Shown piece by piece: positions 18,574-58,976 of a stretch of DNA of 64,000 nt (position 1 is the stretch's first letter; every line of letters begins with the position of its first letter). The translations under genes were made by a program, and so were the position numbers. The stretch comes from Candidatus Bathyarchaeota archaeon (GTDB taxonomy: Archaea > Thermoproteota > Bathyarchaeia > TCS64). The DNA lies in assembly GCA_026014875.1 (NCBI GenBank), contig JAOZHO010000035.1, forward strand, positions 1 through 64,000, given 5' to 3'. The notes below the pieces were generated by a model. That model saw nothing but the letters and a program-made list of their open reading frames with translations, ran no database searches and was not told the origin of the DNA.

Positions 18574-19860
18574 GTGTTTCAGCCAGCAAGAGGAACGAGA
18601 GATTTCCTCCCCCAGGAGATGCGCAAGAGGAACTGGGTCCAGGACAACATCAGGTCCGTGTTCGAGGCCTACGGATACGGGCCCCTGGGGACCCCAGTCT
18701 TCGAGAGCTGGGAGATGCTCAAGATCAAGAGCGGGGAGGACATCGTCAACCAGATCTACTACTTCAAGGACAAATCGGGGAGGGAGCTGGGCCTAAGATT
18801 CGAGTGGACCGCCTCCCTCGCCAGGGTCGTCGCATCCCACCGGGAGCTCCCCAAACCCTTCAAAAGGTACGCCATCGGCCCCGTCTGGAGGTACGAACGC
18901 CCCTCTGAGATGAGCCGCCGGGAGTTCTGGCAGATGGACGTCGACATCGTCGGGGTCTCCGATCCCATCGCGGACACCGAGGTGCTCGCGGTAGCTGTAG
19001 ACTGCCTCAAGAAGATCGGCTTCGAAGGATTCATGATAAGGCTCAACGACCGTAGGCTATTGGAGTCTTTAATCCGTGTAGCCGGGCTTCCGACGGATAG
19101 ATACACCAACATCTTCAGAGCCGTAGACAAGAGGAAGAAGATCGGGGATGAGGGGGTCATAGAGGAACTCGAAAAGATTGGCGCTCCGAAGGATGCCTCT
19201 ATGCGCCTTCTCGAACTAACGTCGACGAAAGGAGACCCTCGGGAGACACTGGAGAAGACGAGGGCACGCATCAGCGACGATGTTCAAGGGCAGCTTGCCT
19301 GTGACACCCTGAGCGCCATAGTGGATTACTCTGAAAGTTTCGGGATCGCGCCCTACCTCATCGTCGACCTAGGGCTCGCTAGGGGCCTCGACTACTACAC
19401 CGGCCCCATCTTCGAGGTCTACGCCGAGGGCTTCGAGGGCGCTGGTAGCATCGCCGGGGGCGGGAGGTACGACAGCCTCGTGGAGACATTCGGGGGCGAG
19501 CCCACTCCCATGACGGGGATCTCCATGGGGATCCTTAGGCTCGTCACCCTCCTCGAGAAGATGGAGGTGTTCCAGGGCAAGGACTTGGGGCCCAAGGTCT
19601 ATGTGGCCGTTGCTTCTGACACCGTCAGGTCTAGTGCCATCGCTATCGCTCAGGATCTCAGGAGGGCGGGAGTCCAGACCGAGATGGAGCTGCTGAACAG
19701 GGGGCTGAGGAAGCAGCTCGACAACGCCAACCGGAAGGGGTTCAGGAAGGTCGTCATCGTGGGGGAGAGGGAGCTCAACGAGGGCTGCGTCTCCATTAGA
19801 GATATGGGGACGTCGGAGCAGAGGATGGTCAAGATCGAGGATCTTGTTGAGGCGCTCTAG
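18574..19860 (+). CDS. hisS: histidyl-tRNA synthetase
   Basis: A 428-residue class II HisRS. Motif 1 lies around YGPLGTPVFESWEML. Motif 2 has RFEWTASLAR and RYAIGPVWRYERP. The two histidine-specific signatures are GLARGLDYYTGPIFEVY and AGSIAGGGRYDSLV, and the C-terminal anticodon-binding domain starts near GPKVYVAV. It starts with GTG at 18574 after GAGGTG. Its 3' end overlaps the convergent endA gene by 32 bases. Confidence 0.96.
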   Translation: MFQPARGTRDFLPQEMRKRNWVQDNIRSVFEAYGYGPLGTPVFESWEMLKIKSGEDIVNQIYYFKDKSGRELGLRFEWTASLARVVASHRELPKPFKRYAIGPVWRYERPSEMSRREFWQMDVDIVGVSDPIADTEVLAVAVDCLKKIGFEGFMIRLNDRRLLESLIRVAGLPTDRYTNIFRAVDKRKKIGDEGVIEELEKIGAPKDASMRLLELTSTKGDPRETLEKTRARISDDVQGQLACDTLSAIVDYSESFGIAPYLIVDLGLARGLDYYTGPIFEVYAEGFEGAGSIAGGGRYDSLVETFGGEPTPMTGISMGILRLVTLLEKMEVFQGKDLGPKVYVAVASDTVRSSAIAIAQDLRRAGVQTEMELLNRGLRKQLDNANRKGFRKVVIVGERELNEGCVSIRDMGTSEQRMVKIEDLVEAL

Positions 19861-20398
19861 TTTCTTTTTTCTCGAAATCCATGTTGGATAGGGTGTAGTA
19901 GACGATCTCCCCTCGCCTGTCGACCACCGCGAGGCGGAGGATCTTACCTGATCCAGTGGCTTCATCCAGCACCTTTCCTAGGCGCTCCACAGGCACTTTC
20001 GACCCCTCCCAGACCGTGTAGATCATGTATCTGGGCACCTTTTTCCCGTATGACCCCCTCTCATAGACGAGGAAATCTAAACTCGGACCCTTACCCCCTT
20101 TAACGACGAATCCCCGGGTCCTCAGATCCCTGTACACGATATACCTGGTCCAGATGTCCGGGTCGTCCTCCGAGAACTTTTGGAGCAGCTCCCGGAAGAC
20201 CAGCCTTTCCTTGGTCTGTTCTTCGATGATGGAGACTTTCTGGCGCTCCACGAGGTATAGCGCCTCGAATGGTTGGAGGGAGAGGACTCGACTGTCCCTC
20301 ATCAGGGAGCCGTACCCGTCCTGGTATAGGCTATTCGCCTCGTTCCACGCTGGGACGACGATCCCGGTGGCTGTGTAGACGGCGCTGATGGGCTCCAT
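19829..20398 (-). CDS. endA: tRNA-intron endonuclease EndA-family subunit, catalytic His missing
   Basis: About 190 residues with the EndA C-terminal nuclease domain. YIVYRDLRTRGFVVKGGKG matches the family's YxDLRxRGxxVKxG block, LDFLVYERG supplies the first catalytic residue (Tyr), and SGKILRLAVVDRRGEIVYY is the C-terminal core with a nearby Lys. Where active enzymes have the catalytic His (usually HSxY or HSPF), this protein reads KKVPRYMIY and has no His. It may therefore be the structural subunit of an alpha2-beta2 enzyme, with the catalytic partner elsewhere. ATG 20398 is preferred; GTG 20407 is possible. It is convergent with hisS. Confidence 0.82.
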   Translation of the reverse strand: MEPISAVYTATGIVVPAWNEANSLYQDGYGSLMRDSRVLSLQPFEALYLVERQKVSIIEEQTKERLVFRELLQKFSEDDPDIWTRYIVYRDLRTRGFVVKGGKGPSLDFLVYERGSYGKKVPRYMIYTVWEGSKVPVERLGKVLDEATGSGKILRLAVVDRRGEIVYYTLSNMDFEKKETRAPQQDPRS

Positions 20399-20488
20399 CG
20401 CATTCACTTGATACCTCGGATTGGATAAGTGTCTCCCTCGCCGATGGGTGCAGAATCCTTTTCTTGGGGGAGCTCCTCACTCTTCCTT

Positions 20489-28680: not shown

Positions 28681-29403
28681 TTAGATCTCTATGAGGGTCT
28701 CGAAGCTGTATTTGCTTATGCAGTCCTTCAGGTACTCGTTCCATTCGTCCCCCACGGTTACCAGCACGTAGATCCCTGCGATGTCAGCCCGCTGGTTAAC
28801 CACCATGTCCACCAGTGCTTTCACGGTCTCCCCCGTCCTGACCACATCATCGATGATCAGAATGCTGTCCCTCTTCCTGATGGAGTGCTTGGGAATATAC
28901 AGGCTCTGCCTGATCGCCGAGCCCTTGGGGATATAAGTCTCCTCGATGAAGTCGTTTATCCCCACCTCCTTGGTGCCCTTGGCGATGAGGAGGTTCACCT
29001 CGAGGAGATTCGCGACGAGGGTGGAAACAGGGATACCATCGACGGCAGCGGTGAGGACTTTGGTGACCCTCCGCCCGGCGAACTTTTCGAGGGCGTAGTT
29101 GGACATGATCTTGAGCCAGGTGATCTCGGTGACGAGGGGTGTGTTGTCGAAGTAGCCGTCCTCGTCGAAGTTGATTCTCTTCTTGAGCTCTTCCCGGATG
29201 TCGGTGATCTCCATGAGCTTGTCATAGAGGCCTTGGGCCCTGCTATAGCTGGGGAGGACGTGGCCGCGCATGTATCTGCTCAGGATCGGTGGGCTGAGGC
29301 CTAGGAGATCGGAGAGCTCCTGGTATGTGTGGGTTTCAGCAGCAACTTTGAGTAGATCCGTGATCATCATCCGGTATTTGAGCTCTCTCACCCTTGTCTC
29401 CAA
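28681..29403 (-). CDS. gfcR: GfcR-like regulator (HTH plus phosphoribosyltransferase fold)
   Basis: A 240-residue protein. Residues about 20-50 are a Cro/XRE-like HTH (TYQELSDLLGLSPPILSRYMRG). Residues about 90-240 are a type I PRTase fold with the PRPP loop IDDVVRTGETV (ILIIDDVVRTGETV). This build matches GfcR, an archaeal regulator of sugar metabolism genes (as in haloarchaea), where the PRTase domain senses a metabolite. Symbol assignment is by domain build, not by regulon evidence. A 58-base gap separates it from rpo7. Confidence 0.82.
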   Translation of the reverse strand: METRVRELKYRMMITDLLKVAAETHTYQELSDLLGLSPPILSRYMRGHVLPSYSRAQGLYDKLMEITDIREELKKRINFDEDGYFDNTPLVTEITWLKIMSNYALEKFAGRRVTKVLTAAVDGIPVSTLVANLLEVNLLIAKGTKEVGINDFIEETYIPKGSAIRQSLYIPKHSIRKRDSILIIDDVVRTGETVKALVDMVVNQRADIAGIYVLVTVGDEWNEYLKDCISKYSFETLIEI

Positions 29404-29436: not shown

Positions 29437-29527
29437 CGGGCCTGAGGGGAGTTGAACCCCTGACCACCGGATCTCTTCGACCGAAGTCTTAAAAGTCCGA
29501 TGCTCTGCCTTGCTGAGCTACAGGCCC
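29437..29527 (-). tRNA. tRNA-Lys(UUU), one intron
   Basis: The 7-bp acceptor (GGGCCTG with CAGGCCC), D arm (GCTC/GAGC), T arm and loop CTTTTAA with anticodon TTT are all present. A 17-base intron sits after position 37 (29473-29489). The junction is a textbook bulge-helix-bulge: CTTT pairs with GAAG, the 3-base bulges are TA^A and AG^A, and the inner helix is GAC-TTCG-GTC. CCA is not encoded. Confidence 0.95.
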
Positions 29528-29776
29528 ATAGGCCGCACGTCGTTTACCCTTTCTCGTTAACATCGTATTTATCGTTTTTGGAATTTGTAATGTTTGGTTA
29601 ATATTTCTCCTTTAATTTACTCTTGAAGGGCGATTCTTGTCACATTTCGAGTCAACAAAGTTCTCATAACTAAAACAGGAATCTGCTGGAAAATTAACGT
29701 CGTTTCTGAAAAAGCTTAAATCAGCGGATGATTTTATCGAGTGTGCTTTGCGGTTGGACTAATCAGGCGGCCGTGG

Positions 29777-29793
29777 ACGCTTCGGCGGCGGAT
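29777..29793 (+). other. non-canonical tRNA intron at position 10/11
   Basis: 17 bases within tRNA-Gly. The central helix CCGT/GCGG, bulges GG^A and AT^T, and inner hairpin CGC-TTCG-GCG give bulge-helix-bulge geometry. The outer helix is weak (two pairs), as in relaxed junctions. Confidence 0.7.
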
Positions 29794-29821
29794 TCCAGCC
29801 TGGTATGACTTCAGCCCCCCA

Positions 29822-29837
29822 TGGTATCCTCGGGGAG
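29822..29837 (+). other. canonical tRNA intron at position 37/38
   Basis: 16 bases within tRNA-Gly. The anticodon stem is the outer helix, the central helix is CCCC/GGGG, and the bulges are CA^T and AG^A. The inner helix is short. Confidence 0.72.
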
Positions 29838-29937
29838 AGCTGAAAACCCGGGTTCGAATCCCGGCGGCCGCACCATTTTTGATAACTCACACGTGGTTTT
29901 CCATTATATCCACTACTAGAACTGAACCTACAAATGC

Positions 29938-57838: not shown

Positions 57839-58976
57839 TTGGACATCGATTCGATTAGAGCGGATTTCCCGGGTCTCCGAGAATGGACATACCTGGACAA
57901 CGCCTTCATCTGCCTGTACCCGAGGCAGGTACGGGAGGGCTACGACGAATTTCTGGATCAATGGATGAACTTCAGCCCGAAGGGGGCCAAGACGATTCTC
58001 GGAGAGTGGCTCGATAAAGCAAACCATGTCCGGGGAATGATAGCAGACTTTGTGGGAGCGGCAGCGAACGAGATCGCCCTCACCACCTGCACCGGCTCCG
58101 GGCTAAACATCGTGATCAATGGGACAAAATGGGAGAAGGGGGACAACGTGGTCTTCCCCGAGTATGAGCACAACCCCATGGACACGACGATGCTGCGGAG
58201 ATATGGCGTGGAGTCTAGGCCCGTGAAGGTGGAGAAGGGGCGGGTAGAGCTCTCTGACTTGGAGAAAGCCGTTGACGACCGCACGAAGATAGTACAAGTA
58301 AGCCAGGTCTCCTATGTGAACGGATTCAGGTTCGACCTCAAAGAGGTCTCGGACATCGCCCACGATCACGGAGCGAAGGTCCTGGTGGACTCTACCCAGG
58401 CTCTGGGCGCCCTCGCGACCGACGTGAAGGAGGAAAAGGTGGACTTACGTCTCTGCGGCCCCTTACAAGTACCTGATGGGGCCTGCAGGCCTTGCGTTCC
58501 TCTACGTCAGCTCGGAGCATCTCGATGATCTGGAGCCTGACCGCATAGGCTGGAAGAACCAGCTATGGGAGGGAGACCACGCCGAGGAACCGCGGGATGG
58601 CTTCAACGCCGCCGAGAAGTTTGAGTATGGCACAATCCACTTCCAAGGGGCCTATGGCCTCGAAAAGTCCCTGGAGTACATCAACAACATCGGGATCGAC
58701 AAAATCGAGAAGAGAATCTTGAGTCTCACAGATCACCTCTGGTCCAGGCTCTCAGAGCTGGGGAGGGAGATGTACACTCCCCCCGGGAACAGAGCTCCCA
58801 TCGTGAGCTTCTACCAGAACGATTCCGTCGAAGTCGCCTCTAAGCTGATGCTAGAGAAGGTGAAGGTGACGGGAAGGGAGGCCCACGGTGGCCACATCAG
58901 GGTCTCATCCCACTTCTACAACACCCGCGAGGATATCGATCTGTTCATCGATAAGCTATCCGAGTATCCCGCCTAG
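57839..58976 (+). pseudogene. class V aminotransferase (cysteine desulfurase-like) with one frameshift
   Basis: Two frames make one ~380-residue protein. The first (57839 to about 58446) has the SufS-like start and TCTGSGLNIVINGTKW. It also has the PLP ring-stacking region and HDHGAKVLVDSTQALGALATDV. The second frame resumes as VSAAPYKYLMGPAGLAFLYV, with the PLP-binding Lys, and runs to 58976. A single extra A at 58447 (in GGACTTACGTC) accounts for the break; without it the reading is VDFVSAAPYKY. It may be a true mutation or a sequencing error. If intact, it would release sulfur or deaminate a small amino acid. Confidence 0.75.

Follow-up and report, generated by a model that had tools for sequence, protein, structure and literature searches.

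How can a tRNA mature when a bulge-helix-bulge (BHB) intron lies near its 5' end, so that one strand is claimed by both the splicing motif and the acceptor stem? This question is raised by a tRNA-Gly(CCC) gene in the window, the whole stretch of 64,000 nucleotides of a Candidatus Bathyarchaeota contig that was analysed here. The gene almost certainly has two introns, one of them at position 10/11, and very likely represents a functional tRNA-Gly(CCC) from which they are spliced by proteins. A short copy of the 5' acceptor strand lies upstream of it, and we consider below whether this copy may serve as a stand-in during splicing.

The tRNA-Gly(CCC) gene and its introns

The gene was missed by both ARAGORN and the Rfam tRNA model when the 64-kb window was scanned. 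The Rfam tRNA model matched only tRNA-Lys(UUU) and tRNA-Ser(GCU) in the window, and the Rfam search gave a sub-threshold tmRNA match over the same 109 bases as the tRNA-Gly(CCC) gene. No ARAGORN match was obtained with the unspliced gene. Once intron 1 was removed, ARAGORN recognised a tRNA-Gly(CCC) interrupted by a single intron of 16 nt, and after removal of both introns it called a plain tRNA-Gly(CCC). The doubly excised product consists of 73 nt, the length given in the original prediction, plus the encoded CCA. The intron borders proposed there coincide with those in Table 1, and the first intron is independently confirmed by intron-less orthologues. Neither the endonuclease beta-like gene of the window nor the upstream strand copy formed part of that prediction. 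A split or permuted tRNA was ruled out, as all exons lie in order within 109 bases. The existence of another intact tRNA-Gly(CCC) gene, which would have counted against this copy, was also considered; none was found in the genome (51 contigs totalling 2.5 Mb, 96% complete), where the other tRNA-Gly genes detected are tRNA-Gly(UCC) and tRNA-Gly(GCC).

Table 1. Features of the tRNA-Gly(CCC) locus and related genes in the window
Feature	Position	Strand	Basis
tRNA splicing endonuclease beta-like subunit, without catalytic His	19829..20407	-	PF01974, 55.4 bits; PDB endonucleases; sequence
GfcR-like regulator of the PRPP-binding/phosphoribosyltransferase type, marking synteny of the two tRNA genes	28681..29403	-
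tRNA-Lys(UUU), neighbour, intron at the canonical position	29437..29527	-	ARAGORN, Rfam
TATA-like box CTTAAA at -52	29715..29720	+	motif match only
Second AT-rich stretch TTTTAT	29732-29737	+	motif match only
Leader GCGGTTG repeating the 5' acceptor strand, putative stand-in	29750..29756	+	co-occurrence with the intron
tRNA-Gly(CCC) gene, encoded CCA, two introns	29767..29875	+	sequence, orthologues, ARAGORN on spliced forms
Exon 1, tRNA nt 1-10, GCGGCCGTGG	29767..29776	+	position 9 is the sole variable site among intron-bearing orthologues
10/11 BHB central helix, 5' half (C5C6G7U8), overlapping the acceptor strand	29771..29774	+
Intron 1 at 10/11, 17 nt, ACGCTTCGGCGGCGGAT (A-CGC-UUCG-GCG-GCGG-AU)	29777..29793	+	absent from intron-less orthologues; BHB shared by 10 genomes
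10/11 BHB central helix, 3' half (intronic GCGG)	29788..29791	+
Exon 2, tRNA nt 11-37	29794..29821	+	sequence and ARAGORN
Intron 2 at 37/38, 16 nt, TGGTATCCTCGGGGAG	29822..29837	+	recognised by ARAGORN after removal of intron 1
Exon 3, tRNA nt 38-73	29838..29872	+	sequence and ARAGORN
3' acceptor strand, nt 66-72, CGGCCGC, with which the leader copy may pair	29865..29871	+
Encoded CCA	29873-29875	+

The 3-base bulges and the 4-bp central helix that had been predicted are present at both junctions. At 37/38, C32-C35 pairs with GGGG, and the bulges are CA^U and AG^A; an orthologous intron occurs in most relatives. At 10/11, C5C6G7U8 pairs with the intronic GCGG, and the bulges are GG^A and AU^U. 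This predicted motif has the features of an archaeal BHB intron, namely a 4-bp helix and two 3-nt bulges with cuts expected after the second bulge base, and its excision yields a standard tRNA that agrees with the intron-less orthologues. It also conforms to the strict hBHBh' form, in which the flanking helices have at least two Watson-Crick pairs (PMC7714728): the inner helix is CGC/GCG, and G3-C13 and G4-C12 are added on the outer side.

The anticodon loop (CCCCCAA, 29815-29821) has C at position 33 instead of the near-universal U33. C33 is found in the tRNA-Gly(CCC) of most relatives, with U33 in G010, and U33 is retained in the Gly(GCC) and Gly(UCC) paralogues.

Conservation of the 10/11 intron and the splicing endonuclease

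The GfcR-like gene adjoins the tRNA-Gly gene in most close relatives, and its matches come almost exclusively from Candidatus Bathyarchaeota, with one distant match in a bacterium-titled record. At this syntenic place, eight orthologues lack the insertion exactly at the junction and read GTGG^TCCAGCC uninterrupted (GCGGCCGTGGTCCAGCC). These orthologues fix the unusual position at 10/11, and comparison with them proves at the sequence level that the insertion is a true intron.

The 10/11 intron was present in 9 of the 61 genomes searched (this genome counted), eight of them from the same family and one from a sister family. A strict pattern applied to 257 genomes of the class recovered it in ten, i.e., the same nine and G033 from another family; in a 300-genome sample of the phylum, the only match was this genome. 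Because the strict pattern requires near-exact exons, diverged cases would be missed in these counts. The class scan gave an eleventh strict match (G005:C72, L148), which was not a tRNA, and an earlier loose class-wide pattern was replaced by the strict one, as its matches were mostly chance. A scan with a D-loop pattern recovered other D-arm introns, not the 10/11 intron. The only close contrast lies within one genus, where G006 has the intron and G012 lacks it. The phylogeny of the adjacent GfcR gene did not separate one gain with several losses from repeated gains.

In all ten intron-bearing genes, nucleotides 5-8 (CCGU) pair with an intronic GCGG, an inner hairpin is formed, and the two 3-nt bulges have the consensus RG^R and AN^U. 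The central helix and 3-nt bulges are identical across the eight distinct intron sequences. The sequences of the inner hairpin differ between genomes (CGC/GCG here, CAC/GUG in G001, CGU/ACG in G027, and UCGCG/CGCGA in G033, whose 5-bp stem is wholly different); thus, pairing is kept while the sequence changes. The compensatory changes comprise GC to AU at one pair, and AU, CG, and UA at another. In a pair count over nine order-level sequences, 95.5% of cells pair in the proposed structure, versus 23-55% when the partners are slid.

Other tRNA genes of these genomes deserve mention. In the tRNA-Gly(CCC) of G033 (L138:1501-1627), the 10/11 intron is accompanied by an anticodon-stem insertion of approximately 30 nt at about 29/30, with none at 37/38. 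In one genus (L006, L007, L008, and L013), the GfcR-adjacent tRNA-Gly is of the UCC type with a different acceptor stem, not CCC. Members of other Bathyarchaeia families (L046, L048, L049, and L149-L151) have a long intron in the D-loop of tRNA-Gly at about 15/16, with UCC where the anticodon was read; this is a second type of D-arm intron in Bathyarchaeia tRNA-Gly. In the present genome, two near-identical genes with a CAU anticodon and a 28-nt intron lie approximately 1.8 kb apart (L091, contig C28:96327-98190), and ARAGORN identified a tRNA-Trp(CCA) interrupted by an intron of 56 nt (L095, contig C34, ~58403-58535), which is not among the Rfam hits of the genome. There are also many stray tRNA 3' ends (T-arm and acceptor) with no 5' half (L081, L088, L091, L105, and L104 on C1, C38, C28, C33, and C27). 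Several of them share similar upstream sequence, and repeated copies of the 3' half of an intron-containing CAU tRNA are among them. They are possibly integration scars.

The genome carries two PF01974 genes. One product, encoded in the window, is the beta-like subunit listed in Table 1. The other is the catalytic subunit (contig C1, locus L001), which is closest to chain 3p1z_B of A. pernix EndA (E 1.2e-42) and retains the HAPY motif. Its lysine aligns with K44 in the Crenarchaea-specific loop of A. pernix (GKPLGIPKPK vs GQPLDVEKPR); this loop lysine is needed for the broad specificity of the endonuclease (PMC6379350). One subunit is catalytic, with Tyr, His, and Lys, and the other structural, and an (alpha-beta)2 assembly is predicted from their sequences. 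Judged in this way, the genome encodes both subunits of a Crenarchaea-type endonuclease, including the lysine tied to non-canonical introns. Heteromeric endonucleases of this type accompany tRNA introns located at a variety of sites (PMC12397907, PMC4090602).

The acceptor strand and its copy in the leader

Nucleotides 5-7 are part of the 5' acceptor strand; therefore, formation of the 10/11 BHB precludes that of the acceptor stem and vice versa. Upstream of the gene, at a distance of 17-24 nt, all ten intron-bearing genes have a 7-mer that pairs at 6-7 of its 7 positions with the 3' acceptor strand, with pairing energies of -9.8 to -15.4 kcal/mol. No such copy was found in the 10 intron-less orthologues (at most 5 pairs, none below -6.6 kcal/mol) or in 15 tRNA-Gly paralogues from the intron-bearing genomes (at most 5 pairs), which mostly share the same acceptor stem; since the intron-bearing genomes are related, this association amounts to few independent events, namely one within-genus contrast, one sister family, and one other family. 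None of the matches to the converse pattern that were checked outside the intron-bearing genes was a tRNA-Gly gene. The copy reads GCGGCCG in five genes, GCGGTTG in two, and GCGGCTG, GCGGCAG, and GCGGTCG once each, with a mismatch in G003. GCGG and the seventh G are invariant, while identity is approximately 34% just upstream and 48% just downstream. In G012, which has no 10/11 intron, the copy is degenerate.

The leader copy was noticed and examined after the fact. In this genome, its pairing with the 3' strand includes two G-U pairs, and 5 of the 45 other tRNA leaders of the genome also reach 7/7 when G-U pairs are counted; taken alone, the pairing here is not exceptional, and its single-genome significance is weak. 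We make no claim of a special role for the last bases of the leader in pairing with the D-loop; the pairs exist, but intron-less leaders look similar by eye.

In constrained folding of the ten genes, treated as single molecules at 37 °C without modifications or proteins, the BHB state of a transcript starting at +1 lies 4.1-15.6 kcal/mol above the cloverleaf, and inclusion of the leader copy changes this range to -6.1 to +4.7 kcal/mol. For this genome, the predicted cloverleaf is still 4.4 kcal/mol better with the leader included.

The upstream motifs bear on whether the copy is transcribed. All ten intron-bearing genes have a TATA-like motif between -51 and -63, and in the intron-less genes it is mostly found at -32 to -40; the intron-less G012, from the same genus as G006, keeps it at -57. 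The far position of these motifs suggests that the copy is probably transcribed within a longer leader. The AT-rich stretch at -35 here would place the transcription start downstream of the copy.

These features can be assembled into a possible order of events. The transcript would carry the two BHB introns, and the broad-specificity (alpha-beta)2 endonuclease of the Crenarchaea type would cut each 3-nt bulge behind its second base, followed by joining of the exons by a tRNA ligase; the cutting and ligation steps are assumed from the family. It is very likely that both introns are spliced by this endonuclease mechanism in a functional gene. As the 10/11 BHB pairs nucleotides 5-8, flanked by nucleotides 3-4 with 12-13, the acceptor stem could not form at the same time, and the stand-in strand in the leader would pair with nucleotides 66-72 until intron 1 leaves. 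The real 5' strand would then displace it, the cloverleaf would form, and RNase P would remove the leader. For this part of the scheme, we infer the transcription of the leader copy, its pairing, and the order of the steps. We somewhat favor a stand-in strand encoded in the leader, on the basis of sequence comparison and folding models. The chances are likewise slightly in favor of the fuller proposal, in which this decoy pairs with the 3' strand and frees the 5' strand, intron and decoy are gained or lost together, and splicing triggers the strand exchange.

Alternative readings and known systems

The most serious alternative, which we regard as possible but clearly less probable than a stand-in, is that the introns are ordinary and the upstream GCGGYYG is a non-functional scar, e.g., a tRNA 5' fragment left by a lost mobile element that brought the intron. 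Such a process has a parallel in Caldiarchaeum, where integration of a mobile element has been invoked for the gain of a 24/25 intron and for a fragment of a tRNA 5' part lying upstream of a tRNA gene (PMC3293823). The many stray 3' fragments in the present genome would fit it, and an intron and a scar would pass on jointly by inheritance. However, GCGG and the seventh G are held constant across genera while the surrounding bases are not, and of the five distinct changes seen in the copy, four replace C by U and preserve pairing with the 3' strand. The copy has moreover decayed in G012, which is intron-less yet has a far TATA-like box. A mobile-element origin would explain the duplicated 5' end and would be compatible with later use of the copy. 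A stand-in would also be unnecessary if the 10/11 BHB formed and were cut co-transcriptionally, before the 3' acceptor strand exists. The BHB lies within the first ~30 nt of the gene, and its central helix appears in the predicted nascent 5' fold of 5 of the 10 genomes with the leader included. We nevertheless consider this explanation unlikely, because without the leader the helix appears in only 2 of the 10 nascent pieces, and the leader copy is left unexplained.

Two further readings are highly improbable. The failure of standard finders to detect the gene could suggest a pseudogene, or an insertion that is a disabling mutation, but this is the sole Gly(CCC) gene found in the genome, its mature parts are conserved, and the same insertion with compensatory changes recurs in 10 genomes. 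There is equally little to recommend the view that the tRNA truly begins at the upstream copy, for which the complementarity of the copy to the 3' strand could be cited, and that an additional 7/8 intron fills the space between the two copies. The downstream GCGGCCGTRG never varies and is unbroken, just as it is in the intron-less orthologues, whereas the upstream copy varies and is mismatched in G003.

Non-canonical BHB tRNA introns have been described in Crenarchaeota, Thaumarchaeota, Nanoarchaeota, and Caldiarchaeum (PMC4090602, PMC8450103, PMC3293823), and both multiple introns and D-arm introns are already known. The introns described here resemble them in being short, in the 4-bp helix with two 3-nt bulges, in the presence of several per gene, and in the heteromeric endonuclease of the genome; they differ in the Bathyarchaeia host and in the linked leader copy of the acceptor strand. 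A review lists positions 3/4, 20/21, 22/23, 25/26, 29/30, 30/31, 45/46, 53/54, 56/57, 59/60, 'etc.'; because the list is open-ended, we claim only that 10/11 is unlisted there. The tRNA-Thr(GGU) of Caldiarchaeum, with its 24/25 intron, shares a D-arm intron and duplicated tRNA 5' sequence upstream (PMC3293823). However, the duplicate there is a 5' half-sized fragment located ~1.9 kb off across an integrated element, whereas the copy described here is a 7-nt strand at a near-fixed distance of 17-24 nt and is conserved across genera. S. tokodaii tRNA-Glu and A. pernix tRNA-Thr likewise have D-arm BHB introns, which crenarchaeal EndA cuts in vitro, but these are other tRNAs and positions, and we saw no mention of a leader strand for them (PMC4307357). 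Our search of the open-access literature found nothing on tRNA introns in Bathyarchaeia or on a leader stand-in strand. The kind of intron is thus known, and what is new is a 10/11 BHB that uses the 5' acceptor strand and is accompanied by a copy of that strand in the leader.

The present gene extends doubly interrupted tRNAs to Bathyarchaeia and shows, within a single genus, genomes with and without the intron. If the stand-in is real, it would represent a new RNA-refolding device, would help to explain how introns settle outside the anticodon arm, and would tie intron gain to changes in the promoter and the leader.
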